Assembly: GCA_902799245.1 (NCBI GenBank)
Contig: CADBZY010000009.1
Location: 1-64,000, forward strand
DNA length: 64,000 bases
DNA from: an uncultured Ruminococcus sp.
Lineage (GTDB): Bacteria; Bacillota; Clostridia; Oscillospirales; Acutalibacteraceae
Reading direction: 5' to 3'
A program made the position numbers and the translations under genes. Below, piece after piece: positions 7,569 to 26,564 of the stretch. The notes beneath the pieces are model-generated. The model was not told the origin of the DNA and did not search any database. It saw only the letters and a program-made list of their open reading frames with translations. Positions within the stretch are counted from its first letter, which is position 1. Every line of letters starts with the position of its first letter.

Positions 7569-8342
7569 CTACCCTTTTTCTCTCTTTTCAACTGCTACAA
7601 TATTCTCATAAATCTCAGCAAAATCGATCCTTGTGGCAAACAGATACTTAGCAATCACCTGCATCAGTTCAAAGTCGTTGATATGATCCAGATCCAATAT
7701 GCCCGTGTCTTCCATCATAATCACTTCGCAATATCCATCCAATACGCCCTTCTGAGTTCGTAGAAAATCGGGACGGTAGGCATACATGGATGCGTTCATA
7801 TCAAATATTTCCGGAGCCTGCTGACGTGCCACAAAATCAGAAGCAATTACTTTCTTGTAGCCGTGCTCTGTCTTCATTACCATATTGAAGTAAGGGTTTC
7901 GCCTGGAATCCGTTACGGAAAATGTTACATCAGCATGGCAGGCTTTCTGTTTCTCAATCAAATGAACGATATCTTCCACCTTCCGCAGCGGTGAAGTCAG
8001 ATCGAGATCCACTACCATGTCATAGTGCGTTTGAAATCTGTCTTCCATTTTGACAAGTGTGCTGCAAATAACCGCCGGCTTAGGTACTCTGTCACCGCCG
8101 AGTTCTTCTTCTCTGACGATAATTTCAACATCCACAAAGGGATTATTCTTGGCAATCTCAATCAGCTTTTCGCTGTCCGTATTCACCGCGACATCAATGC
8201 GGTCTTCCTTGTTGCTTTTTTTGTAAAGTTCGATTGCTGAAAAAGTATAATAAGGCAGAGGATATCCCAAAAAGTCTCTGATGTTTTTTTCAGGAATCCC
8301 TTTTGAACCGGCTCTGCCACAAATTGTCATTAGTATATTCAT
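7569..8342 (-). CDS. legF: CMP-legionaminate/acylneuraminate cytidylyltransferase
   Basis: 257 residues. The N-terminal ILMTICGRAGSKGIPEKNIRDFLGYPLPYY is the nucleotide-binding signature of NeuA/LegF enzymes, which couple CTP to a nonulosonic acid. VVDLDLTSPLR and the FSVTDSRRNPYFNMV segment are also family-typical. It is the last gene of the nine-gene minus-strand operon and performs its last step. LegF is preferred over NeuA because the operon contains LegB/LegC/PtmE homologues of the legionaminic rather than the N-acetylneuraminic route. The sugar specificity cannot be read from sequence alone. Confidence 0.85.
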   Translation of the reverse strand: MNILMTICGRAGSKGIPEKNIRDFLGYPLPYYTFSAIELYKKSNKEDRIDVAVNTDSEKLIEIAKNNPFVDVEIIVREEELGGDRVPKPAVICSTLVKMEDRFQTHYDMVVDLDLTSPLRKVEDIVHLIEKQKACHADVTFSVTDSRRNPYFNMVMKTEHGYKKVIASDFVARQQAPEIFDMNASMYAYRPDFLRTQKGVLDGYCEVIMMEDTGILDLDHINDFELMQVIAKYLFATRIDFAEIYENIVAVEKREKG

Positions 8343-8359
8343 AAGTTCACCTCAAATTA

Positions 8360-9301
8360 TTACATTACTATTCCTTGCGTGAGATTCATGGTCTGAACAG
8401 CTTCAAAAATCGTGCTGTCTGAGGCTGCGCCCGCAGCGATCTCCAGGAAGTGCCTTAATTCTGCCTTTTGAAAGTCATCACGGCTTTCCTCAAAGGAAAT
8501 TATTTCGCCTGACTTCAAAAATCGAATCTCATTTTTTATCAAATCGGCAATGATCGTATCATCCTCAGTGAAAAGCATACATTCTCTTACTGTGCTTCTG
8601 CCAAAATAATCCAGATGAAGTTCGACAAATTTATCGTCGTATTCAGCCATATACAAAGCGGTATCTTCCACGTCAATTTCAAGATTTGTTTTTTTTCCGC
8701 TCATGTAGACAACTTTCTTCGGCTCACCAAAAAGAAATTTCAGATAATCCCACTCATGGATCAGATCAATACTGACGCCGCCGCCAAGCACCTTCTGCGC
8801 ACTATAGGTACTGCGGTAGTCCTGCCCCGGTCTCCATTCGGGAAGATAGCTTGATGAAATGGCTCTGACGCCTATAATGTGATGATCAGCTACATATTGC
8901 TTCACATATTGAATCACCTTTTTATATCTCAGCGGACACGCTACATAACAGTTGACGTCATTCAGATAGGAAGAATTTTGGGCTTCGGATAAACGCCCGA
9001 CAGAAGAAACCGGTTTTTCAATGAAAAACGATTTCGCTTTATCATGAACCGCGTTAAGCGTAGACATATGATATTCATTGGGATTGGTGATAAAGATGGC
9101 GTCGTACTGATCCAATTCATCGGGACTTGTATAAACCTTATGAATAAGTGATCCTACCGTCAGCCCTTCTAACGTGTTCTTCCTGCGCACTACATCAATT
9201 TCCGCCTCCACACCGTTTTCCGACAATATTTCTGACAGATTTCTGATGTGCCGCTGCGCGATGGAACCAACGCCAATAAAACAGTATTTTTTGATAGCCA
9301 C
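8360..9301 (-). CDS. Gfo/Idh/MocA family oxidoreductase (first copy)
   Basis: 313 residues. N-terminal Rossmann motif CFIGVGSIAQRHIRNL and the FITNPNEYH and FIEKPVS segments of NAD(P)-dependent sugar dehydrogenases are present; the middle of the protein has the usual GGGVSIDLIHEWDYL motif. It is next to a second family member (6-base gap), so the two may form a pair. Oxidoreductases of this family accompany many nonulosonate clusters; their reaction is unproven. It may alter a side chain of the nonulosonate, or supply a precursor. Confidence 0.8.
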   Translation of the reverse strand: MAIKKYCFIGVGSIAQRHIRNLSEILSENGVEAEIDVVRRKNTLEGLTVGSLIHKVYTSPDELDQYDAIFITNPNEYHMSTLNAVHDKAKSFFIEKPVSSVGRLSEAQNSSYLNDVNCYVACPLRYKKVIQYVKQYVADHHIIGVRAISSSYLPEWRPGQDYRSTYSAQKVLGGGVSIDLIHEWDYLKFLFGEPKKVVYMSGKKTNLEIDVEDTALYMAEYDDKFVELHLDYFGRSTVRECMLFTEDDTIIADLIKNEIRFLKSGEIISFEESRDDFQKAELRHFLEIAAGAASDSTIFEAVQTMNLTQGIVM

Positions 9302-9307
9302 TGTCCA

Positions 9308-10279
9308 CTATGCCTCCATCTTATCAATCCAAACCAAAACCTTTTCATCGTCCTCAAAGCCGTATGAAGTATTTTCATTTTTTTCAACGGCAGAGAAGAA
9401 AGTGATGATTTCTTCCTGATAGGCATTTTCTACAATCGTTGCCTGATACCCGTTTTGGTGTTCATACTCTGTGTAAAGGTCGATTTTTTTCATCTCGCCC
9501 TGTTCAAATTTCTGCAACCCTTCCGGTGTACCGTTCCAGTTGATATAGAGATGCTCTCCATAGATTTCAAGATTTCTTACCGCTTTTGGACAGACAACGT
9601 CTACATGAAGCGTTCCCTTATGTCCGTTTTCATGCTCGATCTGAATCACATAGTTGTCGTCATAATCGATTTCCAGGCTGCTGCTGCGATCATGGAGAGA
9701 AGTGATGCTTTTGATCGGTCCAAAGACCTGAACGATCCACGGCAACTCAATTGCCATAATCTCGCGGCAGCCGTTGGTTCTTTTGTCTCCCACAAAAAAC
9801 TGCTTATAGCTTTCCCACGGATGCCAGTCGGGAAGATACTGCCCGACATGATAAGAATAGTTCAGAGCTTTTGCGTAATCATGTACTTGTGAAAAAATGT
9901 ATTTAATTTCTTCTCTGTACAAAAATGTTGACGACAAAAACAGCACCTTGTTCTTTTCTTTTGCCAAAGTAATATTTTCCTGGTAATAATCATTGATCAG
10001 ATTAATTTCGGTGAATACATTCAACCCGTTTTTCAGACAGTGATTGATAATTTTTCCATGAGAAACGGGAGATGTGCAGACAAAAACACAGTCAACGGCA
10101 TGTGTTGATAGCGCATCCTCTAAGGAAGAAAATGTTTCCAAACCGAATTGCTCGCTGACCTGTATTCTGCGTTCTTCACTGAAATCAACACCATAGATGT
10201 TCTCAACAGTATTCAATTGTTTCATTAACCGGATTCTTCTTTTTCCCATGGAGCCTAAGCCTATTACTACAACATTCAT
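9308..10279 (-). CDS. Gfo/Idh/MocA family oxidoreductase (second copy)
   Basis: 323 residues, starting VVIGLGSMGKRRIRLM (Rossmann GxGxxG) with FVCTSPVSHG following. The catalytic EKP motif of the family appears altered (FTEINLINDYY), so the classical Lys is not obvious: activity may differ from that of the neighbouring copy. The start codon overlaps the end of the upstream LegG gene by four bases, showing translational coupling. Its specific role in legionaminic metabolism is not known. Confidence 0.75.
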   Translation of the reverse strand: MNVVVIGLGSMGKRRIRLMKQLNTVENIYGVDFSEERRIQVSEQFGLETFSSLEDALSTHAVDCVFVCTSPVSHGKIINHCLKNGLNVFTEINLINDYYQENITLAKEKNKVLFLSSTFLYREEIKYIFSQVHDYAKALNYSYHVGQYLPDWHPWESYKQFFVGDKRTNGCREIMAIELPWIVQVFGPIKSITSLHDRSSSLEIDYDDNYVIQIEHENGHKGTLHVDVVCPKAVRNLEIYGEHLYINWNGTPEGLQKFEQGEMKKIDLYTEYEHQNGYQATIVENAYQEEIITFFSAVEKNENTSYGFEDDEKVLVWIDKMEA

Positions 10280-11445
10280 ATTTTTCCTCCAAAACTGACG
10301 TCATAGAATTTCTTCTTAAGATCAATATTTCCTTTCATAACAACGTCAATCGCTTTTTCGGCAATTTTCACTGCCGCGTTTCCATCTCCGTAAGGACTTA
10401 CCACCTGTCGGCAGATTTCTTTGTGTTCCGGCGAAAGCGCAGTATGAATGGCTTCCGCTATTGAAGCAGTGTCAGGCTGACAATTAATGATGCTTTCTGA
10501 TTGCAGCCGTCCACGCTGACGGTCTCCGATATTCACTGTAGGAACGTGAAACGCCGGTGTTTCAATAATTCCGCTGGATGAGTTGCCGAGAACAAACGCA
10601 CTGTATTTCATCAGTGACAAATACCTACGTACACCGAGAGAAGTGAACACATGCAGATTTGGCATCGTCTTTTCCGCTTCATCGAGCAGGTCATTGATTC
10701 TCGCACCGCCCTGATCGGCGTTGGATTTCGTGACAATAAACTCGATTTCATTAAATTGATTGATTGCCCGCAAAAACTCTTTTATCTGCTCATCTACCCC
10801 ATTGCCTTCCATGGTAACTGGATGATAGGTGCAGACAGCGTATTTACAATCAGATAAGCCGATGCTGTGAAGTGCTTCCTCTTTGCTCATATTGGCGACT
10901 GTAAGTATATTGTCGATACTGGTTGAGCCATAATTGAACACGCGATCCGGACATTCACCGAGCTGAATCACTCTTTTTTGGCTGTCTATATTCGTGACAA
11001 AATGCAGATAACTGATTTTGGTAATAGAATGACGAATCCATTCGTCCAAGGCACCTTCTGTCGTATCTCCGCCACAAAGATGAAATACGGGAGTTCGAGT
11101 ATTGCCTGCCGCGGCTGCGATAGCGAGAGTTTCATACCGATCGCCCAGCAGAATAACGGCGTCAAATCGTTCAGCGACAAACAAATCCGTAAATCTGACA
11201 AGGGCATCCGCTTGATTGGCTGAGATATCCTTTTCCGTGTCGGACTTGACAGAAATGGGAATTTTATAATCAATTCTGTCGTCAATTTCTCTGATCGTTA
11301 ATCCGTAACTTTCGGTCAGATGAGTTCCCGTAACAATAAGGTCAACTTTTATTCTGTCGCATTCATATTGTCTCAGTGCTTTTATCACCGGAGACAATAA
11401 TCCGTATTCCGCTCTTGTTGCAGTAACCACCGCTATTTTTTTCAT
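10276..11445 (-). CDS. legG: Hydrolysing UDP/GDP-sugar 2-epimerase (NeuC/LegG)
   Basis: 389 residues. VTATRAEYGLLSPVIKAL at the start, VTGTHL, GDRYETLA and CGGDTTEGALDEWIRHSITK are signatures of NeuC-type hydrolysing 2-epimerases. In the legionaminic pathway LegG releases 2,4-diacetamido-2,4,6-trideoxymannose from its nucleotide. GNSSSGIIETP near the C-terminal part fits the nucleotide-binding site. The gene overlaps LegI by four bases. It is a standard-length member and probably functional. Confidence 0.85.
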   Translation of the reverse strand: MKKIAVVTATRAEYGLLSPVIKALRQYECDRIKVDLIVTGTHLTESYGLTIREIDDRIDYKIPISVKSDTEKDISANQADALVRFTDLFVAERFDAVILLGDRYETLAIAAAAGNTRTPVFHLCGGDTTEGALDEWIRHSITKISYLHFVTNIDSQKRVIQLGECPDRVFNYGSTSIDNILTVANMSKEEALHSIGLSDCKYAVCTYHPVTMEGNGVDEQIKEFLRAINQFNEIEFIVTKSNADQGGARINDLLDEAEKTMPNLHVFTSLGVRRYLSLMKYSAFVLGNSSSGIIETPAFHVPTVNIGDRQRGRLQSESIINCQPDTASIAEAIHTALSPEHKEICRQVVSPYGDGNAAVKIAEKAIDVVMKGNIDLKKKFYDVSFGGKI

Positions 11446-12434
11446 AGTTCTATCAGCTCGTCCTCTTTAAAATCACGCACTGCTCTTGTTCCGAGTACCT
11501 CAAACCATTTCATCGGGCTTACTCCGCTGCCCGGTCTTTTTACAGTAATATTATCCTCGGTTAGTATTTCTCCTGCCATAATATCTCTTAATGCAACAAT
11601 GCTCTTGCGGGCAATGACTATATTCTTTCTTTCCGATGGAGAAGGCGTTTTTTTGCCTGTTCCTAATGCGGCTTCTATGTTTCGTATGCTTTGAACCATT
11701 GCAGCCAGTTCATCCGGTTGCAGGCTAGCTTTGTGGTCGGGACCTTCCATATTCCGATCAAGGGTAAAATGCTTCTCAATCACCGTTGCGCCCATTGCAA
11801 CCGCCGCAACGGGAACTTCTATTCCCTTTGTGTGATCGGAATAGCCGACCTCCAAACCGAAAGTCTCCCGCATTGTCTGCATTGCTCTGAGGTTGACGTC
11901 CTCAAAAGGTGTCGGATATTCGGTATTGCAATGAAGCAGCGTAATCTCTTTTGTTCCGTTTTCTTTAAGAACCTTTATCGCCGCTTCAATTTCGTGCAAT
12001 TCACACATACCTGTAGACATGACGACCGGCTTTCCTGTTTTCGCCAACGCAAGAAGGTAGGGAAGATTGGTGATTTCTCCGGAAGGGATTTTCCAGAACG
12101 GCATATCAATAGCGTTGAGAAATACTATACTCTCAAAGTCAAAAGGGGTCGAGAGAAAACAAATTCCCACCTTATCACAGTAGGCTTTAAGCTGAATGAA
12201 CTCGTCATAAGAAAGTTCTAATTTCCTGAGCATATCCTGCTGTGAACTGTCGCCGGTTGTTGCTTTTTGGTACTCCGCTTTTTTAGCAGTATGTGAAACC
12301 AGATTGGTCGATTTGAAAGTCTGAAATTTTATGCAATCGACTCCTGCGGATTTAGCTGCATCAACTAATTGGCACGCAATTGCAAAACTACCGTTATGAT
12401 TGACGCCTGCCTCCGCAATAATATATACACTCAT
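11442..12434 (-). CDS. legI: N-acetylneuraminate/legionaminate synthase (NeuB/LegI)
   Basis: 330 residues. IAEAGVNHNGSFAIACQLVDAAKSAGVDCIKFQTFK is the NeuB TIM-barrel start, and STPFDFESI, PSGEITNLPYL and YSDHTKGIEVP are conserved in enzymes condensing a 6-deoxymannosamine derivative with phosphoenolpyruvate. The C-terminal 60 residues form a SAF (antifreeze-like) domain beginning near RKSIVALRDIMAGE. The start overlaps the stop of the NeuD-like gene at 12434, so translation is coupled. Confidence 0.9.
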   Translation of the reverse strand: MSVYIIAEAGVNHNGSFAIACQLVDAAKSAGVDCIKFQTFKSTNLVSHTAKKAEYQKATTGDSSQQDMLRKLELSYDEFIQLKAYCDKVGICFLSTPFDFESIVFLNAIDMPFWKIPSGEITNLPYLLALAKTGKPVVMSTGMCELHEIEAAIKVLKENGTKEITLLHCNTEYPTPFEDVNLRAMQTMRETFGLEVGYSDHTKGIEVPVAAVAMGATVIEKHFTLDRNMEGPDHKASLQPDELAAMVQSIRNIEAALGTGKKTPSPSERKNIVIARKSIVALRDIMAGEILTEDNITVKRPGSGVSPMKWFEVLGTRAVRDFKEDELIEL

Positions 12435-13063
12435 TATTCAATCACCTTACATGGATTTCCGTATGCTTTTACCTTATCCGGAATGTTTTTGACTACAACA
12501 CTTCCGGCGCCGATAACCGATTCAGAACCTATCGTAATAAGTTGCCGGACAACACTTCCCGCTCCAACATGCGAATCATCTCCGACAGTAACCTGCCCGC
12601 ATAGAACAGTTCCAGGACTGATGTGAGCAAAGTCACTGATAACACAATCATGCTCAACGACCGCTCCGGTATTGATGATAGAACAGATACCTACCGACGT
12701 GCCTGCATTAATGACCGCTCTCTTTCCAAGAAATGTTCCTTCCTTTATTTCAACATTCTTTGCGATTATTGCGGAAGGATCAATGATCACCGGAACATTA
12801 AGATTGTATGACTTGACCATCTGATAAAGCTTCCTTCTGACAGCAGTGTTGCCTACACTGCCGACTGTAATAAAAGCCTCTGTCCATCCATCTTTAATAA
12901 GTCCAGGAATATCATTATCCGCACCGATGACAGACACGCCCAGATAAGAATGATTATTGGTATCAACAATTCCGATCTCGTCATATAATCCAAGAGCTAT
13001 GACACTATCAACAACAGAATGGCAGTGTCCTCCACCGCCAATCAACATAATCTTTTTTTTCAA
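12434..13063 (-). CDS. NeuD/PglD-like sugar N- or O-acetyltransferase
   Basis: 209 residues. The N-terminal PglD-like Rossmann part (IMLIGGGGHCHSVVDSV) is followed by a left-handed beta-helix with hexapeptide repeats (AHISPGTVLCGQVTVGDDSHVGAGSVV). The VVEHDCVISDFAHISPG segment has the catalytic His of this class. In the legionaminic route an enzyme of this family (LegH) acetylates the C4 amine after LegC, which this gene could supply; an O-acetyltransferase like NeuD is the alternative. It is placed between ptmE and legI. Confidence 0.75.
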   Translation of the reverse strand: MKKKIMLIGGGGHCHSVVDSVIALGLYDEIGIVDTNNHSYLGVSVIGADNDIPGLIKDGWTEAFITVGSVGNTAVRRKLYQMVKSYNLNVPVIIDPSAIIAKNVEIKEGTFLGKRAVINAGTSVGICSIINTGAVVEHDCVISDFAHISPGTVLCGQVTVGDDSHVGAGSVVRQLITIGSESVIGAGSVVVKNIPDKVKAYGNPCKVIE

Positions 13064-13079
13064 CCTATGATCCTCCGGA

Positions 13080-14129
13080 TTACTCCCCGTACAGTCTCTT
13101 CCTCATTTTCTCCAACTCAGACAATTGCCCCATATCCAGCCATTCGCTTTCGCTGACGGGAAACACCGATACCTTGCGCCCCTTCTGCCGCTGCTTTTCG
13201 ACAATCTCAGGAAATCCGACAGCCGTGTCATCCTCGATGTCCTCCAGCACTTCCGGTTCTACGACATAAATGCCGGTGTTGGCAAGGACTGAGATAACAG
13301 GTTTTTCTCTAATCTTTTCTATCTTGCCGTTGATGCCCATTTCAATGACGCCATAAGGAATGGGATAATATTTGTAGGCGCAGATCATGGTAATGACATT
13401 CTGGTGCTTACGATGAAACTGAAGAATCCTCTCATAATTGGCAAGCAGCAGATTGTCGCAGTTGGTGAAAAAGAAAGTGCTGTCAATTTTGTCCCGAAGA
13501 AGGCTGAGTCCGCCGCCAGTTCCTAACGGCTTTTCCTCGTCATACCAATGAATGTGATAATGTGCTTCATTTTCCGAAAAATACGCCTTCATCAGTTCTC
13601 GTTTGTAGTTGACAATAATATGAAACTGATCACAGCTGTAGCTCTGATATTCTTTCATAATGTGTTCGATAATAGGATAATCACCCACCGGTATCAAAGG
13701 CTTGGGAAGCACTCTGGTATAAGGATCCAATCGGGTTCCTTTTCCTCCGGCGTTGATTACCACAGGAATATGAAGCGGCGTGCGCTGTGTTCTGGCAGGC
13801 ATTTTGCCGATATACAAATCCACCATTCTGCCTTCGTCGTTACAAATCGGAATGGCAATTAATTTTTTGTTATCATAAAGAGTGACGGCTTCCTCGAACG
13901 TGTGGGCGAATTTGGGATCAGGGTGGGCGGCCTTCTGCACATTGTCATCCAGATGACCTCCTGCCAACAGAAAGCGGCGAACATCTCCGTCCGTCAGACT
14001 GTATTTTAGCCTTGTCTGTTCATCGGTAAGAAACAGGATGCCAGATGAGTTAATATCTATTTTGCGCATCGCTTCCGCAACGGAGAGATCACATGTGCCG
14101 ATAAATTTTTGAAATTCCAGATTATCCAT
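13080..14129 (-). CDS. ptmE: CBS-domain nucleotidyltransferase, glucosamine-1-P guanylyltransferase type (PtmE)
   Basis: 349 residues. Residues 1-115 resemble a paired CBS region; the nucleotidyltransferase begins near residue 123 with VVINAGGKGTRLDPYTRVLPKPLIPVGDYP, the G-x-G-T/S-R...K motif. PtmE of Campylobacter has this architecture and makes GDP-glucosamine, diverting amino sugar to legionaminic rather than wall precursors. Its presence therefore suggests a GDP-linked route here. The start overlaps legC by eight bases. The nucleotide (GTP or UTP) is inferred from architecture. Confidence 0.75.
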   Translation of the reverse strand: MDNLEFQKFIGTCDLSVAEAMRKIDINSSGILFLTDEQTRLKYSLTDGDVRRFLLAGGHLDDNVQKAAHPDPKFAHTFEEAVTLYDNKKLIAIPICNDEGRMVDLYIGKMPARTQRTPLHIPVVINAGGKGTRLDPYTRVLPKPLIPVGDYPIIEHIMKEYQSYSCDQFHIIVNYKRELMKAYFSENEAHYHIHWYDEEKPLGTGGGLSLLRDKIDSTFFFTNCDNLLLANYERILQFHRKHQNVITMICAYKYYPIPYGVIEMGINGKIEKIREKPVISVLANTGIYVVEPEVLEDIEDDTAVGFPEIVEKQRQKGRKVSVFPVSESEWLDMGQLSELEKMRKRLYGE

Positions 14130-15297
14130 TTGCCAGCTCCCTAAGCAGCTGCTTTATCTCGTTTGCGACATAATTGATTTCCTCTTCCGTAATCTGCGTA
14201 CTGCAGGGAATATTCAATATTCTGGAGGAATAATAAGGCGCCTTTTCCAATTGGTAGGTATCATCGTCACGATAAGGCTTCTGCTCGTGGATCAGACCCC
14301 ATACCGTTCTGGTCTGGATAGCTTTTTCATGAAGCCGTTTGACGATTTCTCGCATGGAAGCTTTAATTCTCGAAGTGTCAATCTTCAATGAATAAAACCA
14401 CATATTAGAAAAAACTCCATCTCGGAAAGGCATCAGCTCCGCCAGTTCAAAGCCTTCAAACGCTTTCAGATAAAGATCATAATGATGCTGTTTTCTTCTG
14501 ATAAATTCGGGAAGTTCCTCCATCTGAGCCACTCCGAGAGCCGCCTGCAGATTGGTCATACGGTAGTTGTATCCCACTTCATCGTGAATGAAGAACTGCG
14601 CGTCATCCTTTGCCTGCGTGGAGAGATAGCGCAAATGATCGACCGTGTCGGAATCGCTTGCAGTCAACGCACCGCCGCCGCCAGTCGTGATGATCTTATT
14701 GCCGTTGAAGCTGTAGGCGCCGAAATGACCGATGGTACCGGCAAATTTTCCAGCAAATCTTCCGTCTGTGTAATAAGTACCCAGAGCCTCCGTTGCGTCT
14801 TCAATAACAGAAAGGTTATATTCAGTTGCTATATCCATGATCGACTCCATATCAGCCATGTTGCCGAAAACATGAACGACAATGATCGCCCTTACGGCAG
14901 AACCTTTATATGTCAGAATTCCGTCTGAAAACACACATTCCTTTTCACAGAACTGACGCAGCTTGACTGGATCCATGCAAAGAGTGTCGTCGCAATCCAT
15001 AAATACCGGCTTGGCAAACTGATATTTGACAGGATTAACCGCCGCGATAAACGTCAGGGTCGGCACGATCACCACATCACCCGGTTCCACGCCGGATTCC
15101 CTGAGTGAAAGATGAAGCGCGGATGTTCCACTCTGACACGCCGCAACATTGTTTACATGCAAAAACTCCGCCATTTTCTTTTCCAGCTCATTGACATAGC
15201 TGCCCGCGGTAGAGACCCAGCCCTGCTCCACCGCGTCCATTACATAATTTTTCTCATTTCCTTCAAAATTGGGAATGGAAAGAGGAATAAAATTCAT
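14122..15297 (-). CDS. legC: DegT/DnrJ-family PLP aminotransferase (LegC)
   Basis: 391 residues. The PLP lysine is in YSFNGNKIITTGGGGAL (Lys201), preceded by VIEDATEALGTYY (the cofactor-ring Asp). CQSGTSALHLSL (54-65) binds the phosphate. It follows legB by 24 bases and would aminate the 4-keto sugar made by LegB at C4, with glutamate as the usual donor. Sequence and context fit LegC of the Campylobacter legionaminic pathway; PglE/PseC-like relatives with other stereochemistry cannot be excluded. Confidence 0.85.
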   Translation of the reverse strand: MNFIPLSIPNFEGNEKNYVMDAVEQGWVSTAGSYVNELEKKMAEFLHVNNVAACQSGTSALHLSLRESGVEPGDVVIVPTLTFIAAVNPVKYQFAKPVFMDCDDTLCMDPVKLRQFCEKECVFSDGILTYKGSAVRAIIVVHVFGNMADMESIMDIATEYNLSVIEDATEALGTYYTDGRFAGKFAGTIGHFGAYSFNGNKIITTGGGGALTASDSDTVDHLRYLSTQAKDDAQFFIHDEVGYNYRMTNLQAALGVAQMEELPEFIRRKQHHYDLYLKAFEGFELAELMPFRDGVFSNMWFYSLKIDTSRIKASMREIVKRLHEKAIQTRTVWGLIHEQKPYRDDDTYQLEKAPYYSSRILNIPCSTQITEEEINYVANEIKQLLRELANG

Positions 15298-15321
15298 GCT
15301 GATTGACCTTCCTTTTCTGCC

Positions 15322-16530
15322 TTACATTTTGCTGTCAAGCGATTTTCCGGTTTCAATATGCTCGAAATTCGGCAGATAATCTTTCATAATAGAAACAACT
15401 TCTCCCTTAGTTGTTTTATCCTTTTCAAACACATCGTTTAATTCTTCATAGAGTCTTTGCACCTTTCCCTTGTCAGGAATCTGTTTGCCGACGATTACGC
15501 CTAAGGCCTTGAAGCGCTCCATATCGGCGGTCTCGGTGTCGGTCACAAATTCCTCAAAAGGCTTTTCGCCCGATGTATCGGAAACAGAATAATGAACCGG
15601 ATACATATTGCTTCCGTTTTTGAGTTCCTCTGCTTTTTCGACAGCTTCTTCATCGGAACTGCATTCCAGAACTTCATAGCCGTGAGCATGAAGCAGTTCG
15701 GTGGCGATGGCGTCAAAGGTCATCATCTGCGCTTCTTGCAGTTTCGGAAAGAAGATAGCCCGGTTTTCTCCCAGCATACAGGACAGCATACAAATCTGAC
15801 CGCTTTCTTCGGGCGAAACGAAATATCTTCTGACATCAGACGGCGCGCCTAACGGCTGTAATTTCTGTATTCTCGCAAGGAAACCAGCGGGAAGCGAACC
15901 GTTGGAAAAAGCAACATTGGCAAAACGTGCGGTCTTAACCGGGAACTTGTCCGAATAACTGAAAATCAGGTCCTCCATGATCCGCTTGGAAGCCCCCATA
16001 ATATTCACCGGATTGGCTGCCTTGTCCGTTGAAACGCAAAAGTATTCTTCCGGTGGATATTCTGAAAGCAGGTCGAGCAGCAGCTTGGCGTGAAGCACAT
16101 TGTTCTGAAGAAGAGCTTCAACGGAATAAATGTCCTTTTCTGATCGAACATGCTTATGAGCGGAAAAGTTTCCGACAATATCAAAGCCGCCTCTGCTGAT
16201 GAACATCTTTTTGAATACCGGAGAGGCAAAATCCATCGGGTAGGGAATATAATCCTCCGGCACATACATTCCTTTGGTAGATCGCAGGTCACGGGTCAGT
16301 TCCGCCAGCGCGTTTTCATTGGTGTCCACTACCACAAGTGCCTTTGGCTGAAACGGCAGCACTGCTTTTATAAAGGACGACCCGATACTTCCTGCGCCGC
16401 CGATGACGAGAACGGATTTATCCTTAATTTTTTCAGACAGAACATTTCGATTCGCTTCAATATCCGAAAGAAACATTGACCCCGGTCGCTTGGTAACATA
16501 TTCTGAAATAAATTGATTCAGATTAAACAT
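15322..16530 (-). CDS. legB: NDP-sugar 4,6-dehydratase (LegB)
   Basis: 402 residues, extended SDR. The cofactor motif GGAGSIGSSF is at 44-53; STDKAANPVNIMGASKRIMEDL contains the TDK and M-x-x-x-K elements of the FlaA1/PglF/LegB dehydratases. The first enzyme of the pathway and first gene of the operon, converting NDP-GlcNAc to the 4-keto-6-deoxy sugar. ATG 16530 follows GGAGG. A promoter at 16644-16672 lies about 115 bases upstream. Long for a PseB (about 330), matching LegB-like proteins that carry a C-terminal extension. Confidence 0.85.
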   Translation of the reverse strand: MFNLNQFISEYVTKRPGSMFLSDIEANRNVLSEKIKDKSVLVIGGAGSIGSSFIKAVLPFQPKALVVVDTNENALAELTRDLRSTKGMYVPEDYIPYPMDFASPVFKKMFISRGGFDIVGNFSAHKHVRSEKDIYSVEALLQNNVLHAKLLLDLLSEYPPEEYFCVSTDKAANPVNIMGASKRIMEDLIFSYSDKFPVKTARFANVAFSNGSLPAGFLARIQKLQPLGAPSDVRRYFVSPEESGQICMLSCMLGENRAIFFPKLQEAQMMTFDAIATELLHAHGYEVLECSSDEEAVEKAEELKNGSNMYPVHYSVSDTSGEKPFEEFVTDTETADMERFKALGVIVGKQIPDKGKVQRLYEELNDVFEKDKTTKGEVVSIMKDYLPNFEHIETGKSLDSKM

Positions 16531-17182: not shown

Positions 17183-18805
17183 TTATCTCGCTCTTCGTTT
17201 CCTGAGAACCGTGCCGATGGCCAACATGGATAGTATCGCAAAATTGAAGGCAAATACCATTGGCATGGCGCTTTCTCCTGTTCCGGGAGAGAGCGGCTTG
17301 TCAAGATCTTTATCCGGATCAGGAGAAGTCTTCTTTGTCCACTGAGCAGTCAGTACGATATTGCTGTCCACATCAATCACATCGCCGCCGGTAAGCAGTC
17401 CGTTCGCTGCGTATGCCCTCGGCGCGATAACCGTTCCTTTGCCGCCGGGAGCGGGATTCGGGTCAGGATTGGCCTTTGTCAGTTTCCAGCCGGCGAACGT
17501 ATACCCGGCTCTGACGTATTTAAGCTCGGGGGCGTCGTTGGCGAAAACCGTGTGGTTTGCCTTGCCGTCCGCGCCTACGGTGACACTGAATTGGTGCGGT
17601 GTGCCGAGATCTTCGGTGTAGCCCGCGTCGCCTTCCTTGAGCCCGCTTCTGTAGGTGATGGTGTAGACTTCCGGCGGAGGAACGGTACCGTCCATGAAGC
17701 GTCCTGTCAGAAGCACATCCGATTCCGGCATGGTAAATTTTCCGGAAGCCGGCAGTGTCAGATTATCCGGCGATTCCACATTCCAGCCGTTGAAGGTGTA
17801 TTCGTCATCGGTGAGAACCGGCGCAACCGTCACTTCGTCGCCGTTGTGGTATTCCTTCGGTTGGTAATCATCGCCGTCAAGGGTTATTTCATCGCCGTTG
17901 ACGTCATACGCCTTGTAGCGGACGGTATACTTGCCGAGGAATTCCGCCACAAATATCACCTCTTCATCTGGCATGGTGAATCGGCCGTTTTCGTCAATCG
18001 AAAGACCGGATGGAGATTGGAGCTTCCAGCCCTTGAATTCCGCGTTTTCCTTGGTCGGGTCGGTCACGCCTGCGCCCTTGATCACTTCCGTGCCGTAGGG
18101 CTTGGTCTGCCTTGCGTGTTCGGTATCGCTGACCATGTAGATGACCGCGTGAGAATTCTTTCTGTATTCGCCGGTGATCACCACATCGCTTTGCGGCATG
18201 GTGAATTGTCCGGTTTCGTCGGTCGAAAGACCTGTCGGCAGCGTCCAGCCTTCGAAGGTGTAGCCTTCAATCGCCGCGGGCGCATCCTTAAACGGCACTT
18301 TAGCGCCCTTGGCAAAGCGCTCGGGTGCGTAGGCTGCCGGAAGGGTGTATGCCGCGCCGTCCTTGGTCGCGGAATAGCTCACCTGGAAGGTCGGTTCAAA
18401 TTCTGCTGCAAATATTACGTCGTCATCCGGCATGGTGAATCGGCCGTTTTCGTCAATCGGAAGACCGGCGGGAGATTGGAGCTTCCAGCCCTTGAATATC
18501 GCGTTTGTCGCGGTCGGGTCGGTTACGCCTTCGCCCTTGGTGACGATCGTGCCGTAGTCGTGATTCTGGCTGTCATATTCCGCACCGTCCACCTCATAGA
18601 TGACCTTGTGGGGATTCGGGGTAAAGAAGCCGGTGAATTCCACATCGCTGTCCGGCATGGCGAAGGTCTTCTCTCCTCCCTCGGACTCCGTGATGGCAAG
18701 CCCCGCGGGTTGGTTGACACTCCAGCCGCTGAATGTGTAACCCGGTGCGGTGGGTTCCGGCTCGACAGCGATTCCCGTCTGACCGGTTTCATAATCACTA
18801 TCCAC
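17183..18805 (-). pseudogene. C-terminal segment of broken InlB B-repeat surface protein
   Basis: 540 open codons with repeated units of the Listeria-Bacteroides (Flg_new) type: Y-x-F-x-GW followed by a TMPDSDV-like strand, six or seven times. The C-terminus has a wall-anchor layout: SPGTGES, then a hydrophobic segment (MVFAFNFAILSMLAIGTVL) and the charged tail RKRRAR; SPGTG is a variant of LPxTG. The apparent GTG start at 18805 is inside the MITE insertion, so it is an artefact. The segment was once fused in the same frame to the next segment (18914-19708). Confidence 0.85.
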
Positions 18806-18938
18806 AACTTAAGCACTCCCCCAGTCGCTACGCGACAGCCCTCTCAAAGAGGGAGCCATTTTTTGCCTCCCTCTTTGAGGGAGGTGGCACGCCGCAGGCG
18901 TGACGAAGGGAGTTTATTTCCCTAAGTTGTGGATAGTG
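18796..18938. mobile_element. 143-bp MITE-like palindromic insertion
   Basis: Terminal inverted repeats CACTATCCACAACTTA (18796-18811) and its complement (18923-18938) bound an element flanked by perfect 10-bp direct repeats GTTTCATAAT (18786-18795 and 18939-18948). Inside, CCCTCTCAAAGAGGGAG and CTCCCTCTTTGAGGGAG form a long internal palindrome with a GTCGC/GGCACGCC decoration, a type I recall as common in gut Firmicutes. It has no coding capacity. Removing the element plus one direct repeat (153 bp) restores a continuous reading frame, IDRDYET-GQTG, in the surface protein; insertion adds an in-frame stop at 18914-18916. Confidence 0.85.
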
Positions 18939-19708
18939 GTTTCATAATCCCTGTCGATCGGCAGCGCGGACATTCCTTCCGGCGCGTTGCCGGTCAGCGT
19001 GTAGGACACGGTGTGTCCGTTGGTCCAGACAGCGTAAAGCTCCGCGCGGAAGCAGTCCTCGACGGGATTATCGCAGGCGGAGAGCGGTACCCATACGCCG
19101 GAATCGGTGCGCTTAAGCAGCGCCGCGTTTGAATCGGCGTTTTCTGTCTTGCTCCAGCCCTTGAAGACATAGCCTTCGCGCTTCGGAGGTTGGGAAGTCA
19201 TCTCGCCCTTGTCGCTGAATATCTTCGTGTCGCCTTCGCGGTTGAATTCCGAGGCGTCGCTGAGATCACCGGGATTCTTCGTCGGTATATTCGTCACGGT
19301 ATCGCCGCCGGCGTTCGCGTGGAACATCACGGAGTATTTAGCTTCCCAGTTGGCGACCAGCCGGAACCGGTAATCGCTTGTATCCTCCATGATTCTGCTG
19401 TGGGCGATGCGGAAGGCGTCCTGTCCGTAGCTGCTCACGGGATAATCGTGGGTCTTATCCTGGTTGTATTGATTGTTCCAGTGCAGCTTCCAGCCTGTGA
19501 AGACATAGCCCCTGGCTTTCAGATCGCCCTTGAGCAGCGGATAGTAGCCCGCGCGGTTGTTTTCGCCTTCACCGAAGGTGACAAGGCTGTTCATCTCATA
19601 CTGCGTGTAGACAAACACCCAATCCCCGTCCACCAGATTTGCGGAAGGCATATTGTCGCTGAGGTATTCGCCGCCGGTCAGCGCCTCCTCGTTTGGTTCA
19701 TCCGACAA
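18914..19708 (-). pseudogene. Middle segment 2 of broken InlB B-repeat surface protein
   Basis: 264 open codons of Flg_new-type repeats (GYVFTGWKLHW, GYVFKGWSKTEN). It reads through IDRDYET into the MITE and stops there. Its 5' end is joined to the previous segment through a frameshift at about 19700: the upstream frame ends GYYFVG-stop, and this frame resumes SDEPNEEALTG. GTCGGATG occurs once at the junction; a tandem copy would give GYYFVGWSDEPNEE, so an 8-base slippage deletion is the likely lesion (inference). Confidence 0.85.
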
Positions 19709-21368
19709 AGTAATAGCCCGTGCGCTTGGGTGCGCTTGCGCGGAAGACCTTGGTGCCGGTGCCGCGCCAGTTCTTGTATTTCACGAGGGAACTGAAATGA
19801 TTGTTATCCGCATACGGCATATTGGTCACCGTGTCGGTGGTGCCGGGGTTGAAATGCACTTCGAACTGCGGCTCCCAGACGGCGTAGAGGTCAAATTCCA
19901 TATCCACGGCGTCGTTGCGGTTGAACCATGTGCCGTAGATACCGTAGCCCTTGCTGAATGTACCGTCGCTGTTGAAGCGGTATCGGTAGGGACCGGACAG
20001 GCGCTTGCCATCCTCGTTGTTCGCCTTGCGGTAGTAGTGCATATCCCAGCCGACAAATCGATAGCCTGCCGCCTGGAGTCGGTTGTGCTTGAGGGGATAA
20101 TAGCCCTCGACGAAGTTCGACGAAATGCCTTCTTCTTCAAGAACGTCCTCCCACTCGCCGTCTTCATTGACAGGAAGGGCGCTGAGTCCGTCGTTCGCCG
20201 GTTCGTCTATGTGGGTGATGTAGTTCTCGGAGGTTGGCTTTCCGTCGCCTCCGAGGTTCTTGTTGTATTTGAGGACGAACGTCCTGCGAGGTTCCCATCT
20301 GGCTTTGAGATAAACAACTGTGGGAGGTTTGACGGTGTTGGAACTGGTCTTGAACCAGCCGCTGTAAAGACCGACGTTGCTTGTCACGTCGGAAACATTC
20401 AGTTCTTTCGTCTCGGTCAGCTCGTAATGTCCCGGGAAGGCGGTTTCCGTTTCCGTCAGGTCGAGCACTTTGTCCTCGTCCGTTTCGGTCCCGTCCGGTT
20501 TGAGCGCGTAAGCCTTCACATCCCATCCGCGGAAGATGTAGTGATCGGACTGGAGCATACCGTTTTTCACCCGCAGATAGGACGAGGTTCCGCTGGTGAA
20601 GTAGTTCTCGCTGTTTTTGATGTCGTCCTCGTCGAGAACCTCCGTCCATTCCCCTTTGTCCCTGTTCCACATGGCATCGGTAAGCCTTGTGTCCTCTTTG
20701 CCGAGGTAATGACCCTGCGGGTAGTCATCCTGTTTGAGGCCGGGACGGTTCACCTGGTAGATGAAGGTGTAGGTGTTGAGCGGTTCCCACACGGCATAAA
20801 GCTGTGTGTAGAAATAGCCTTGCTTCTCGCTGTCGTAAACCGGATGGGTGCAGGTCGAACTGTTGACGCCCACGTAATTGGTACTGGTATCACTCAGAAT
20901 TTCGCTGCTGCCCGGTTTCGTATCGGCATTCAGGCTCCAGCCGCGGAAGTTGTATTTCGGGCGGGCAGGCTTGGTGTAGTTGATCGCTTTTCTCTCGTCC
21001 GTATCTTTTCTGTATGACCAGACATTGGCACTGTTTCCGGTGGTCTGATACAAAAGTGACGCAGGGGTGAAATTGGTGACATTATCCACTTCATTTGCAG
21101 GGACATTCATGTCAAACTTCACCATGCGCTGCATGTCATAGAGCGCGGTGATGATAAACAGCCTGTCGTAATTTTTATCCAGATCGCCGTTGTAAATGCC
21201 GTGTTGGAATTCGCCCGAGGCGGGTACAGTAAACGTCGTCCCCTGATTGGATTTATAACCGTAGGTGACGTCGTCATAGGTGACGGTGACATCGGCCGTT
21301 TCAGCGGTCTCCGTGGAATAATCCACGACCTTCCAGCCCTTGAATCGATAGCCCGTTGCGGTAGGCAT
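19698..21368 (-). pseudogene. Middle segment 3 of broken InlB B-repeat surface protein
   Basis: 556 open codons made of repeated WEP-x-F-x(n)-Y-x-F-x-GW units (e.g. HYIFRGWDVKAY, GYRFVGWDMHYY), typical of large secreted adhesin-like proteins. The true upstream coding sequence continues in this frame as NGGNKYLKLKNG before the first Met, so the ORF start is not a translation start. It is separated from segment 4 by a frameshift near 21395-21405. Confidence 0.85.
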
Positions 21369-21382
21369 ACCGTTTTTCAGCT

Positions 21383-22576
21383 TCAGGTATTTATTACCGC
21401 CGTTAGTGAAAACATGTCGTCCGTGATCTGGTTTTCATATATGCTGAAGACCCACTGCCCCAGCGGGCTGTTATTCAGAGCGGGATAGAAGTCGGCGTCA
21501 GCCAGTCCCTGATAGGTGCCGACATAGTAATCCGGCGTCATTTCCTCGTTGCCGTTCACCTTCTGCGCCCTTTTGAGTCCGGCGTCATGGACGTTGCCGT
21601 CGTTGCGGTTGAAAATGAAGGTGTAGAGTGTATACCTGTGCCATACGGCGTAGAGATAGACCGTGTTGTCATGGCTGTCCGCAATGTTGCCGGCCGTCAC
21701 GTGATCTGTTCCGTTATCACCGCCCAGTATTCTGCCATCGTAGTTATACTTCCAGCCCTTGAACTGATATCCGTTTGCGCTCAGGCTTCCCGGATAATAA
21801 CCGCCGCTTTCGAATTGGTCGTATGTCAGGGTCACGGACTGCGTGTCGGGATTATACCCGGTGGGAATGTCGGTAATTTCACTCTTTACCCTCTGACCTG
21901 TCTTTTTGTCGATCATATAGTGGAAGTCAAAGATAAAGGTGTAGGACTGCGGCACCCATTCGCCGTAAAGCTTCAGAATCGCGCGTTTGTTGGTGTTGCC
22001 GTAATAATTGTGATCAAATCCGGACAGAGGAATGGAGGTGGATTTTCCGCCTTCCGGTTCCGTACTCCATTGATCTACTACATATCCTTTTTTGGTGCTT
22101 GCGTTTTTATAGACGATGAACTCATAGATATTGCTCTGGGGCGTATCCTTCTGCAGCTCGAAGATAGCGCTGGTCGTGCGGGTGGTAGGATAGCTGCCGT
22201 TGTTGCCCTTTACATAATAGCTGACGTCGTAACAGATGTTCCACTGGGCATACAGAGTAATGTCCTCGCGGAATCCGGTCTGTGTTCCCGTATCGTAAGA
22301 CGTTCCGCCGAAATCAGACGCTGTATTCCATTCAAGCAGGTAAACATCCTTGTAAAGATTGTAATTCTCCGACGAGATCGGACGGGTACTGTCGGCTTTT
22401 TCCTTGTTCAGCAGGTTGCCCTTGCTAGTCAGGGAAAAGCTCTGCGGATCGACGGACACCGTTTCGGAAAAGTCCACTTCCGAATCCACATAGGTGACCT
22501 CGATCTTTTCCGTCCAGACGGCGTAGTATTTCACTTCCCACGCACCGTTATTGTAAACGGCGCTGCCGGTATCCAT
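21383..22576 (-). pseudogene. N-proximal segment 4 of broken InlB B-repeat surface protein
   Basis: 397 open codons of B-repeats (YYAVWTEK, GYVVDQW, GYQFKGWKYN). It ends by frameshift (DDMFSLTAVINT-stop where DDMF plus NGGNKYLK is expected). Upstream a proper gene start exists in another frame: GGAGG, then ATG at 22692, MNNMKRNDSS... and a signal-like RRRILMLSAIITWIPAA, which then leaves frame at about 22580. So the N-terminus seems to be joined to mid-protein sequence by a deletion and frameshift. Confidence 0.8.
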
Positions 22577-23251: not shown

Positions 23252-23600
23252 TTATCTCACAAACGGATATTCCACACGGTTATCCAGCAGCGCGTCGTAG
23301 GCGTTGACCTTGCGGAAGGTGTTGCCCAGCATTTCACGCTCCCTGTAGGAGCGCAGTTGTTCCATATCGAAATTTGCGTAGAACAGACCTTCCGTTTCCT
23401 CGTCGGCGAGAAGAAGGGTGTTGTCGATGCATTCCCCGTTTTCATTCCAGCAGATAGGGGAGAAGGCGCAGGAATGACCCGCGTTTTTTCCGTTCGGATT
23501 CGCCATGGCGACGCCGCACATATTCTCATAGGCTCTCGTGGAAAGCGCCTGCACGCGCGGTTTCATGCTTTCGCAGTCGTTGGGGACGAGAATGATCAGA
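23252..23600 (-). pseudogene. C-terminal fragment of a nitrilase/carbon-nitrogen hydrolase
   Basis: About 115 residues: IILVPNDCESMKPRVQALSTRAYENMCGVAMANPNG matches the catalytic-cysteine-distal region of carbon-nitrogen hydrolases, continuing SCAFSPICWNENGE...LLLADEETEGLFYANFD. The N-terminal 150 or so residues, with the catalytic Glu and Lys, are missing. The expected ILVPN-x-C is retained, but a fragment of this length cannot be an active enzyme. Codons before about 23600 do not resemble the family. Confidence 0.75.
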
Positions 23601-23633
23601 CGTCGTTTGGAATAATAATGACGCAAGGCTGTT

Positions 23634-23732: not shown

Positions 23733-26564
23733 CTAACAGAGCTTATCGCCTATTACACGCCAAGCGCTTGTATCATTTGTGTCATTTCCTTTAAGTCCAA
23801 TCCATATAGTGGCTTTAAAGGTCTTGCCGTTATTCTCATAGGTACTCCAGCTGTTTGTGTAAACAATATGCTGCTCCGGCTTGTTTTTGTAGTCGGAATT
23901 AATCGTTTTGCCGGTAAACGGATTCACCGGATGATCGATTACCCCCGAAAAAGCTAATGTCGGTGTATCTGCGTTGGTCATAAACGTATCGTCTGTTGTG
24001 AGCTCCCGACTGTCAAAATCCTTAACCAGCAGCAGTGATTTAAACAAATTCACATCATTGAATACGTTGTATTTTGCCGAATTGTCGTCGTCGAAATTCA
24101 TCTCAGGAAACGATAGAAATGCTCCGTGATCAGAAACGATGATGATTTTTGTGTTGTCATACACATCGTTTTCACGCAGATAATCAAACCATTTTCCGAG
24201 CTGAATCATTGACGCCATATTGCACTGATAGTGCATCATATGATTCAAATCGCCGATTGACATCTCATCTCCTGACAGCGAGTATCGGATCTGATGTTCT
24301 GCCTCATAGCTTGTGTTATCAATCTCGTGAGCCGGCTCATAGGCGGGTTCCTGGAGTAAAATCGGGTAATGCGTGGTGTCATTGCTGATCATGGTAAATG
24401 TGCCCTGTCCGCTGTCACAGACTCGCGTGATGGTTGGATAGTTTCTTAAGGCGTCGTATGCCTCGAAGAATTTCAGGTTTGCCCCGACCAAGCCGTCGCC
24501 GCTTGCTTGATAGAGATTCCGGATCAGTTGTACAGAAGCATCATTATCCAGATTGGCCTGATTGTAATAACCAGAATTATACAGTGTCTGATGCAGCAGC
24601 AGCGGAGAGGAACGGAAAAGACCGTAGGCGTAAAAATTTCGGTTGCGCAGATTATTGGTGTTTTTGCTGATTTTTTCCAAACTGTCTTCGGAAAAGAATC
24701 TGCCGTTGGTAATGTATTTGTTGATTTCCGGATAGTCATTGTATATGCTCAGATCAGGTATCCACTTATATCCGGCATATGTCGGGTCACAAACGGTGGC
24801 TTTATATCCGTTGGCGGAAAACAGGACGGGCATCACTTTTAAAGCTTCGTTTTGTTTCTCCGCCAGACTTTCATTCGAACGCTTGTCGTTTTCCTCGGGA
24901 ATATACTCATATCCGCCGAAAAGTCCCGGAGTGCCGACGTTCGTATAATTACCGTATGAAATGGTGTTGGGATAGTAGGTAAATCCGGCAAATTGTTCTC
25001 GCAGTTCAGGCTTTTCCTGCATTATGTATGGAAAATAGGTGTTGATTGCTCTATCCAGCATTATAATGACAACATTCTTGCCTGTTTTATCAAGTGTAAG
25101 CACTGCCTGATTCGTTTTTGAATTGTTTCCGTCTGATTGATTTAAGAAACTGGACGAAAGGCCATTCCTCAGTGATGTATAACTGGATTGAATATGGAAG
25201 ACATTTACGCACGACATAACCAGAATGCTGATACATCCGGCCACGCAAACCGATTTGACAATTGACGCGCGCTTGATGCAGATCAGAATAATTACAGCAG
25301 CGATAATGAATAATACTGCGAGATTAAGAGCTATTTGCAGACCGGAATTGATAAGCACATTGTCATATATTAATTCGGACGACATGTTTCCGTAGTTGTT
25401 GCCGAAAAACATATAATTCACGATGGATGCAGCTGCCATAATAGCCGAACCGACGCTGATAATCTTTTGGATGGAAGATGTGGAAAGGCGGTAAAAAATA
25501 TTCATCCAGACTGTAAATGTTCCTGCTGCAAGAATAAAAGCGTGAAATACATATCTCAATGGAGAATGGAGATTGTTAATATCGACAAATTCATCCGGTG
25601 ATGCATTGATGACAGCCGACGGGATCAGTAAGCCTGTCAGAATCGTCATAAAAACGCAGGCAACAAAAAAAATAAAATGATCGGTTCCGGTGGCCTCCGG
25701 CATAGAAAACAGGGACTTGCGTTTTTTCAGGAATAAATGCAATGCTAAAGGCACCAGCATGAGCAACAGAGCGAATATCGCAAAGTTTTGCTTACGGGCT
25801 GTGTTGAAGGGTTCTATAAAAAGAATATACGGCAACGAAGCAATGGAGATGACAGCGCTGATGATGCAGAGTACCAGTTTAGGATTACGAATCTTATAAA
25901 AGATATTCTTGATCAGTGAAAAGATATTATTCAGCGTCCAGTAAAACACAAGACCGGAAGGCGAATCGTATAAAAGAAGAAGGAAGATGACTGCCAGTCC
26001 GAAAGTCTGCAGCTTGGTTTTCAATGGCATCCCTTTTGTATAGATAACGGCGGATACCAGGTTGATCGCAGTCATGAGCAGAGGAAGGAGATTCAACGAA
26101 TGGCCCGCAATGTGAAGCAGACCGTCCGGCATACACAAATCAGAAATAGGCCCGAAACTGGCGTATCGCAGGCGATCTAAACCGGAGAGATAATTGTATG
26201 CCGCAATGAAAAAAGGAATTTCCAGAAGAAGCGATAACGATCCTTTCAATCCGTAATACGGCTTATAATTGTTCTGGCGGTAATAGGTCTGGAGCATCAT
26301 GAAGCGTTCGTCGCCTTTGAATGCTTTTTTGATGTGCGCTACACCGGGCTGCAGTTTCTGTGTGCGAAGCTTTTCTTCCTCCTGCATGGCATCGGCACGT
26401 CTGTATAACGGCAATGTGAGAAAATTAATTGCGAGACTCAATGCGATAATGGCAATTCCCTCGTTATCCGTAAAGCGCAGCATGTAAGCATATACAACGT
26501 CAAATAAGAGCCAAAGCGGCTCGATTATCAGATCATATAACACTGTAAAAATTGCCATTTTCAC
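23733..26564 (-). CDS. YidC-like insertase fused to a sulfatase/LTA-synthase-like domain
   Basis: 943 residues. Residues 1-225 are clearly YidC/Oxa1: LWLLFDVVYAYMLRFTDNEGIAIIALSLAINFLTLPLYRRADAM, later YGLKGSLSLLLEIPFFIAAYNYLS and PSGLVFYWTLNNIFSLIKN. Residues 230-460 are about seven more membrane segments. From about 495 a periplasm-type alkaline-phosphatase fold begins: NVVIIMLDRA (metal Asp504), YTNVGTPGLFGG (candidate nucleophile Thr541 or Thr545), NDTTHYP (His732) and IIIVSDHGAFL (Asp812-His813), as in LtaS-type sulfatases. YidC inserts membrane proteins; such a fusion could link insertion to a phospho- or sulfo-transfer on surface glycans, but this is unproven. GTG 26564 or ATG 26558 may be the start. 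Confidence 0.85.
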   Translation of the reverse strand: MKMAIFTVLYDLIIEPLWLLFDVVYAYMLRFTDNEGIAIIALSLAINFLTLPLYRRADAMQEEEKLRTQKLQPGVAHIKKAFKGDERFMMLQTYYRQNNYKPYYGLKGSLSLLLEIPFFIAAYNYLSGLDRLRYASFGPISDLCMPDGLLHIAGHSLNLLPLLMTAINLVSAVIYTKGMPLKTKLQTFGLAVIFLLLLYDSPSGLVFYWTLNNIFSLIKNIFYKIRNPKLVLCIISAVISIASLPYILFIEPFNTARKQNFAIFALLLMLVPLALHLFLKKRKSLFSMPEATGTDHFIFFVACVFMTILTGLLIPSAVINASPDEFVDINNLHSPLRYVFHAFILAAGTFTVWMNIFYRLSTSSIQKIISVGSAIMAAASIVNYMFFGNNYGNMSSELIYDNVLINSGLQIALNLAVLFIIAAVIILICIKRASIVKSVCVAGCISILVMSCVNVFHIQSSYTSLRNGLSSSFLNQSDGNNSKTNQAVLTLDKTGKNVVIIMLDRAINTYFPYIMQEKPELREQFAGFTYYPNTISYGNYTNVGTPGLFGGYEYIPEENDKRSNESLAEKQNEALKVMPVLFSANGYKATVCDPTYAGYKWIPDLSIYNDYPEINKYITNGRFFSEDSLEKISKNTNNLRNRNFYAYGLFRSSPLLLHQTLYNSGYYNQANLDNDASVQLIRNLYQASGDGLVGANLKFFEAYDALRNYPTITRVCDSGQGTFTMISNDTTHYPILLQEPAYEPAHEIDNTSYEAEHQIRYSLSGDEMSIGDLNHMMHYQCNMASMIQLGKWFDYLRENDVYDNTKIIIVSDHGAFLSFPEMNFDDDNSAKYNVFNDVNLFKSLLLVKDFDSRELTTDDTFMTNADTPTLAFSGVIDHPVNPFTGKTINSDYKNKPEQHIVYTNSWSTYENNGKTFKATIWIGLKGNDTNDTSAWRVIGDKLC

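Follow-up and report, generated by a model that had tools for sequence, protein, structure and literature searches.

A YidC-fold domain fused to an alkaline-phosphatase-superfamily domain in Clostridia: a probable phosphotransferase of surface decoration

What does a protein do in which a fold known from membrane protein insertion is joined, in one reading frame, to an enzyme of sulfatase-like fold? This question is raised by a gene in a 64,000-nucleotide stretch of DNA from an uncultured Ruminococcus sp. (here the window; assembly GCA_902799245.1, contig CADBZY010000009.1, positions 1 to 64,000). An earlier note, made from the sequence alone, had claimed a single frame of 943 residues uniting a YidC core, additional helices and an LtaS/sulfatase fold, and had offered two readings, one that links membrane insertion with phospho- or sulfo-transfer at the surface, and another in which the YidC part has been taken over as an anchor that handles lipids. 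The frame is present at exactly 23733-26564 on the minus strand, and Pfam, an AlphaFold model and fold matches bear out this architecture. Our analysis indicates that the fusion is very probably not an insertase but a surface-decoration phosphotransferase tied to groups activated by cytidine diphosphate or monophosphate (CDP, CMP), and the second of the two readings, with the YidC part handling lipids for an adjoining phosphotransferase, fits best, although the lipid step is one that we infer.

Pfam matched 60KD_IMP (YidC) to residues 36-223 (E 4.3e-22; 79.3 bits vs a cut-off of 35) and Sulfatase to residues 496-825 (E 7.7e-7; 29 bits vs a cut-off of 25), while the AlphaFold model, built with 65 relatives, reached a mean predicted local distance difference test score (pLDDT) of 87.9 and a predicted template modelling score (pTM) of 0.71. 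The active site is intact. In an alignment of 65 long fusions, hand-chosen from 115 matching open reading frames (ORFs), residues D504, T541, H732, D812 and H813 are identical throughout, as they are in 8/8 short forms, and the metal ligands had been rightly recognised. D504 and T541 are 37 residues apart in 65/65, and a Glu-to-Thr spacing of 37 also occurs in one of the two LtaS-like proteins that this genome encodes, the other not showing the pattern in a motif scan. Motif spacing was used here because aligning the profile of the catalytic part to these two proteins gave nothing usable (probability 0.5), and the roles of the active-site residues were assigned by motif and by analogy with LtaS and EptA. 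The CxPSR/SxPSR formylglycine signature of sulfatases occurs in 0/65 fusions, which rules out a sulfatase proper and leaves the claimed sulfo-transfer unsupported.

Downstream of the YidC core, hydropathy gives seven membrane spans, and Lys/Arg-rich stretches lie at residues 56-101, 222-229, 279-294 and 429-437; from this distribution the catalytic domain is predicted to be outside the cell. In other genomes a short form of about 860-876 residues is without just the two-helix piece near residues 233-287 (8/8 examined), and since the loss of two spans keeps parity, the orientation would be unchanged. The short form also shows where the YidC module ends and a complete module of the EptA/PbgA kind begins. 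As in EptA/MCR-1, PbgA/YejM and LtaS, membrane helices are followed by an outer catalytic domain with an Asp/Glu, Thr and Asp-His ligand pattern; however, the fusion differs from these in its YidC-fold front piece, and identity is low (10-17%). PbgA (6xlp) could be aligned across residues 288-943 with a Z-score of 19.8 and a root-mean-square deviation (rmsd) of 13.6, the large deviation being expected if the domains sit at different angles. LtaP and LtaS are among the Foldseek matches listed for the model. In the comparison that gave the Z-scores, most of the matches listed fall on one domain, such that weak or missing matches of the other parts are uninformative. There was no match of the fusion to the NCBIfam LtaS model NF053595 at E up to 10, and two other proteins of the same genome match that model weakly (86-92 bits vs 970).

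A second gene is linked to the fusion. Among 79 loci examined, which hold 97 fusion frames, 61 contain a protein of about 419 residues with a PF04464 domain, hereafter the partner. Of its 63 copies, 43 lie one gene before the fusion, 17 one gene after and three two genes before, always on the strand of the fusion (63/63), with a median gap of 1 base over 66 adjacent partner-fusion pairs. The partner family is confined to the same 10/40 related genomes as the fusion and occurs once per genome, vs one to five matches of the fusion per genome, some of which are contig fragments. This association is strong. The partner matches PF04464 with 51 bits (cut-off 22), its profile retrieves Cps3D and TarL, and the best structural match of its model (pLDDT 87.4) is TagF (3l7k_D, E 3.9e-13). 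Partner and CDP-polyol phosphotransferases (TagF, TarL and Cps3D) therefore have the fold and the Pfam domain in common, but the partner has just one catalytic domain, which is short, carries a membrane helix at its N-terminus as well as an invariant YIDPGTGSML motif, and is tied to the fusion.

Genes for the synthesis of activated donors form the second part of the setting. Full flanks were available for 41 loci; the partner occurs in 35 of these, a donor-synthesis gene within six genes in 27 and both together in 26, with donor genes alone in one (L121). Across the 79 loci a kinase is a neighbour in 26, a nucleotidyltransferase in 23, an EamA transporter in 15 and a BCCT transporter in four (L106 carries one), none of them beside the window copy. 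These neighbours are mostly encoded on the same strand as the fusion (kinase 27/29, nucleotidyltransferase 20/22, EamA 14/15, BCCT 4/4, and a nucleotidyltransferase protein with a pyridoxal-phosphate-type domain 7/8), the share for the remaining neighbours being 350/607. The order nucleotidyltransferase, kinase, EamA, PF04464 and fusion is seen in L085, L100 (with an extra kinase in front), L110, L111 and L119. In L086 the nucleotidyltransferase matches the pneumococcal-type CTP:phosphocholine cytidylyltransferase LicC (1jyk, E 1.3e-38), and the kinase matches choline kinases (3dxq, 5e-50; 4r77, 1.6e-39). These cassettes resemble the lic system (LicA kinase, LicB transporter, LicC cytidylyltransferase and LicD transferase) in that kinase, transporter and LicC-like genes stand same-strand beside the fusion, but differ from it in that no LicD-type gene was recognised inside the fusion cassettes, where PF04464 and the fusion occupy its place.

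Other loci carry other donor routes. In L149 (2852-6976) a protein uniting a phosphoenolpyruvate (PEP) mutase with two nucleotidyltransferase domains precedes the fusion, followed further on by an iron alcohol dehydrogenase and a phosphonopyruvate decarboxylase (Ppd) above cut-off, with partners on both sides; this is a CMP-phosphonate pathway, and the gene set likely specifies a hydroxyethylphosphonate route. The PEP mutase fusion and Ppd recall Pnt phosphonate tailoring (PEP mutase, Ppd and PntC; PMC6697681), however, the available part of that paper names LicD-like transferases, and YidC, sulfatase and glycerophosphotransferase occur 0 times in it. The PEP mutase of the Ruminococcus genome itself sits on another contig, C1. 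On contig C12 of that genome, a pair of fusion and partner is preceded by a 614-residue protein (L012:8663-10507), in which a LicC/PntC-like nucleotidyltransferase (1jyk and 6pd1, E 3.6e-12) is joined to a threonine-phosphate-decarboxylase-like domain (6oux, E 9.4e-48). It is related to T. denticola PntC but differently built, and may use a phospho-amino acid, and no choline, to produce CDP-ethanolamine or a related compound. With the CDP-choline and phosphonate loci, this associates the module with several activated groups, phospho- as well as phosphono-.

Two further gene arrangements were observed at these loci. In L156 (10370-15853) a BCCT transporter, a nucleotidyltransferase, an MttB-family methyltransferase and its cognate corrinoid protein lie beside a partner and fusion, which hints that surface decoration may be connected with the use of methylamine or betaine. 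In addition, L106 (4640-6433) and similar frames of ~590 residues unite a winged-helix DNA-binding domain, a LicC-like nucleotidyltransferase and a choline kinase in single proteins, perhaps self-regulating CDP-choline enzymes.

We propose that cytoplasmic enzymes would supply the head group in activated form (CDP-choline, or a CMP- or CDP-linked phosphonate or amino-alcohol phosphate; X below), and that the TagF-like partner, anchored by its one N-terminal helix, would load phospho-X onto a lipid at the inner side of the membrane. Through the neutral polar groove of the YidC-like domain the head group of this lipid would reach the other side, where the outer catalytic domain would take phospho-X onto Thr541 and then hand it to a surface glycan. 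EptA/LtaS-type enzymes take lipid head groups via a Thr intermediate. A YidC fold can move lipids, since lipid scrambling by E. coli YidC occurs in vitro, according to the part of PMC10491306 available. Several fusion paralogues, the window copy included, would draw on one partner while differing in acceptor; a single partner with several fusions per genome fits a common donor and a separate acceptor for each fusion. We regard the whole chain, from CDP-X or CMP-X via partner, lipid-P-X, groove crossing and Thr541 to the surface glycan, as evenly balanced between right and wrong. The computation itself gives the architecture, the intact active site, the neutral groove, the predicted topology and the linkage to partner and donor-synthesis genes, from which the lipid intermediate, its passage through the groove, the acceptor, and transfer in place of hydrolysis are inferred. 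We are more tentative about a bolder reading, which falls somewhat short of an even chance, namely that a bacterial Oxa1-superfamily domain that has lost the insertase charge acts as a dedicated lipid head-group translocator, in cis on a lipid-using enzyme. Together with a TagF-like partner making the donor lipid from CDP-choline or CMP-phosphonate, this would constitute a third route for surface phosphocholine and phosphonates beside LicD and the EptA/LtaS enzymes fed by phosphatidylethanolamine (PE) or phosphatidylglycerol (PG).

Several observations weigh against this scheme. TagF transfers to polymers and not to lipids, and a lipid acceptor for the partner is therefore an extrapolation. 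The partner is without a donor gene in 9/41 full-flank loci, and neither is present in 5/41 (L067, L073, L075, L078 and the window). The copy on contig C8, like the window copy, stands without an adjacent partner or donor gene. LicD was found elsewhere in 13/20 genomes searched, and decoration in these could be explained without the pair; none was found in the other 7/20 (L106, L111, L110, L091, L077, L093 and L113, for which completeness is not given). Finally, while hydropathy gives two spans in residues 408-477, the AlphaFold model has them as one long helix, and if this were a single span the catalytic domain would be inside.

Of the alternatives, the one that survives best is still unlikely in our view. 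Here the partner would substitute for LicD and place phospho-X onto a lipid-linked glycan inside the cell, with the fusion acting later as a flippase or polymer-level transferase that uses a PG or PE donor as LtaS and EptA do, and with its YidC part serving as an anchor or glycan-lipid flipper. The TagF-like fold of the partner, the CDP-X genes adjoining it and the LtaS/EptA/PbgA-like build of the fusion would all suit this, but it leaves unexplained why both families are confined to the same genomes and why there are several fusions to one partner.

A hydrolase that trims phospho-substituents off surface glycans or lipids during remodelling is an improbable alternative. It draws on the fact that the best structural neighbours of the catalytic domain (model of residues 493-943) are hydrolases, with Z-scores of 21.6 for a phosphonate monoester hydrolase (4uph) and 20.7 for a choline sulfatase (7ptj), against lower values for EptC (6a82, 19.0) and MCR-1 (6a7w, 18.8). 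Set against these matches are the candidate Thr nucleophile, the lack of CxPSR, the PbgA-type membrane part and linkage to genes of synthesis and not of breakdown, with the exception of the methyltransferase and corrinoid genes in L156.

About as improbable, in our view, is that the YidC part still works as an insertase, reserved for the insertion or folding of the enzyme fused to it or of a partner surface protein. The core is complete, with five predicted transmembrane helices and a cytoplasmic C1 hairpin, and the model of residues 3-225 superimposes closely on solved structures (B. halodurans YidC 3wo7_B, Z 18.6, rmsd 2.9 over 209 residues; E. coli YidC 6al2_A, Z 18.5, rmsd 3.1 over 199 residues). 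Fusion and YidC/Oxa1 proteins such as B. halodurans YidC2 and E. coli YidC thus share the core and hairpin, with 199-209 residues aligned at ~3 Å, and also a PSGLVxYW..N motif. However, the groove arginine, whose lack the earlier note had named as a refuting observation, is indeed missing: the position of E. coli R366 is Asn in 65/65 long fusions and Asn in seven and Ser in one of eight short variants, whereas canonical YidCs of related genomes have Arg in 16 and Lys in four (n = 20, picked by BLAST as the best-scoring of 39 genomes with a match). Furthermore, the fusion scores 81.4 bits with the NCBIfam insertase model TIGR03592, under the cut-off of 84.3, and its genome has, elsewhere, the separate canonical yidC that had been suggested as a check (403 residues; PF02096, 158 bits; TIGR03592, 152.8 bits vs 84.3). 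Invariant Asn in place of Arg/Lys, the attached catalytic domain, the sub-cut-off score and existence besides a canonical yidC all set the fusion apart from YidC/Oxa1 proteins.

In the available part of PMC8920935, the positive groove residue is termed strictly conserved across all homologues and is reported to matter for groove hydration. The same source reports that, with a hydrophilic or aromatic residue at position 517, E. coli YidC tolerates loss of the Arg, and by alignment the fusion carries Trp at that place in 65/65, which speaks for an insertase. Yet in S. mutans YidC2, which also has Trp at the 517 place, neutral replacements of R73 inactivate the protein (PMC8920935, same part), and together with the neutral groove this makes insertase function of the YidC part doubtful, as does the company of donor-synthesis genes. 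As a statement of function "YidC insertase" is therefore unsupported.

An assembly or frame error uniting two genes is ruled out for practical purposes, because the frame is continuous, the active site is invariant on both sides of the junction, and independent full-length copies occur at three other places in the same genome and in many other genomes. The fusion is real. Its frame runs from GTG to TAG, with an in-frame ATG two codons after the GTG, and the plus strand across it is riddled with stops.

The family is widespread in Clostridia. The Ruminococcus genome (3.03 Mb, 84 contigs, 98.8% complete) has four fusions besides its canonical yidC, with two on C12 flanking a partner gene and single copies on C8 and, in the window, on C9. 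Identity between these last two is 74%. The fusion was found in 10/40 genomes of the relatives set, this genome included, and in 8/245 genomes of one even draw from the class. When named genomes were scanned, 388 stretches were confirmed to encode a relative, and the best 80 of them were retained as 78 loci that lean to near relatives (L072 and L084 were left out, as the ORF picker chose no fusion frame in them). These best 80 of 388 come from rumen and gut Lachnospiraceae, Oscillospiraceae, Butyrivibrio, Mediterraneibacter and Mogibacterium, and include records named Eggerthellaceae and Chloroflexi. Tandem arrays reach four fusions (L048). Among plasmid records none covers 80% of the fusion protein (nine partial YidC matches) and none matches the partner.

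We found no description of a YidC-sulfatase fusion in titles and abstract openings of the open-access literature, a search outside which most subscription journals lie. Neither the catalytic part nor the chemistry of the pathway is of a new kind; new, as far as searched, are the neutral-groove YidC fold at the front and the link with a TagF-like partner. If the phosphotransferase reading is right, a protein readable as "YidC insertase" or "sulfatase" would be the last step of phosphocholine or phosphonate decoration in gut and rumen Clostridia. Bacterial surface phosphocholine binds host C-reactive protein and antibodies. For phosphonate tailoring, transfer steps are still missing according to the available part of PMC6697681. 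The fusion would also offer a natural test of YidC-type lipid scrambling (PMC10491306, available part), and evolution would seem to have dropped the insertase charge and coupled a YidC fold to a lipid-using enzyme. The features of the gene are collected in Table 1.

Table 1. Features of the fusion gene, with positions in the window.
Feature	Position	Strand	Basis
Whole fusion gene, 943 residues plus stop	23733..26564	minus	Open frame; full-length relatives
YidC-like core, residues 3-225	25890..26558	minus	Pfam; AlphaFold model; structural matches
Asn47 codon, at the site of the conserved positive groove residue (E. coli R366)	26424..26426	minus	Alignments
Two extra transmembrane helices, residues 228-279	25728..25883	minus	Hydropathy; model; missing from short variants of other genomes
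EptA/PbgA-type membrane part, residues 288-460, five helices by hydropathy	25185..25703	minus	Hydropathy; charges; PbgA/YejM alignment
Alkaline-phosphatase-superfamily domain, residues 490-943, predicted extracellular	23736..25097	minus	Pfam; model; charges; structure matches
Asp504, metal ligand, invariant	25053..25055	minus	Alignment
Thr541, candidate nucleophile	24942..24944	minus	Alignment; motif spacing
His732, invariant, candidate donor/acceptor site residue	24369..24371	minus	Alignment
Asp812-His813, metal ligands, SDHG motif, Asp-His invariant	24126..24131	minus	Alignment

Other features of the window were also seen on the minus strand. Directly downstream of the fusion, a 124-residue frame (23252-23626) is probably the remnant of a carbon-nitrogen hydrolase gene, as it matches just positions 189-255 of the 256 in that profile, under cut-off. 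Four successive frames at 17183-22576 look like one very large surface protein split up, with Listeria-Bacteroides-type repeats in at least one of them. Further on, 7569-16530 holds a cassette for synthesis of a nonulosonic acid of the sialic or legionaminic type, with NeuB, UDP-GlcNAc 2-epimerase, a CMP-sugar synthase-like protein, a DegT aminotransferase, a PglD-like protein and Polysacc_synt_2.

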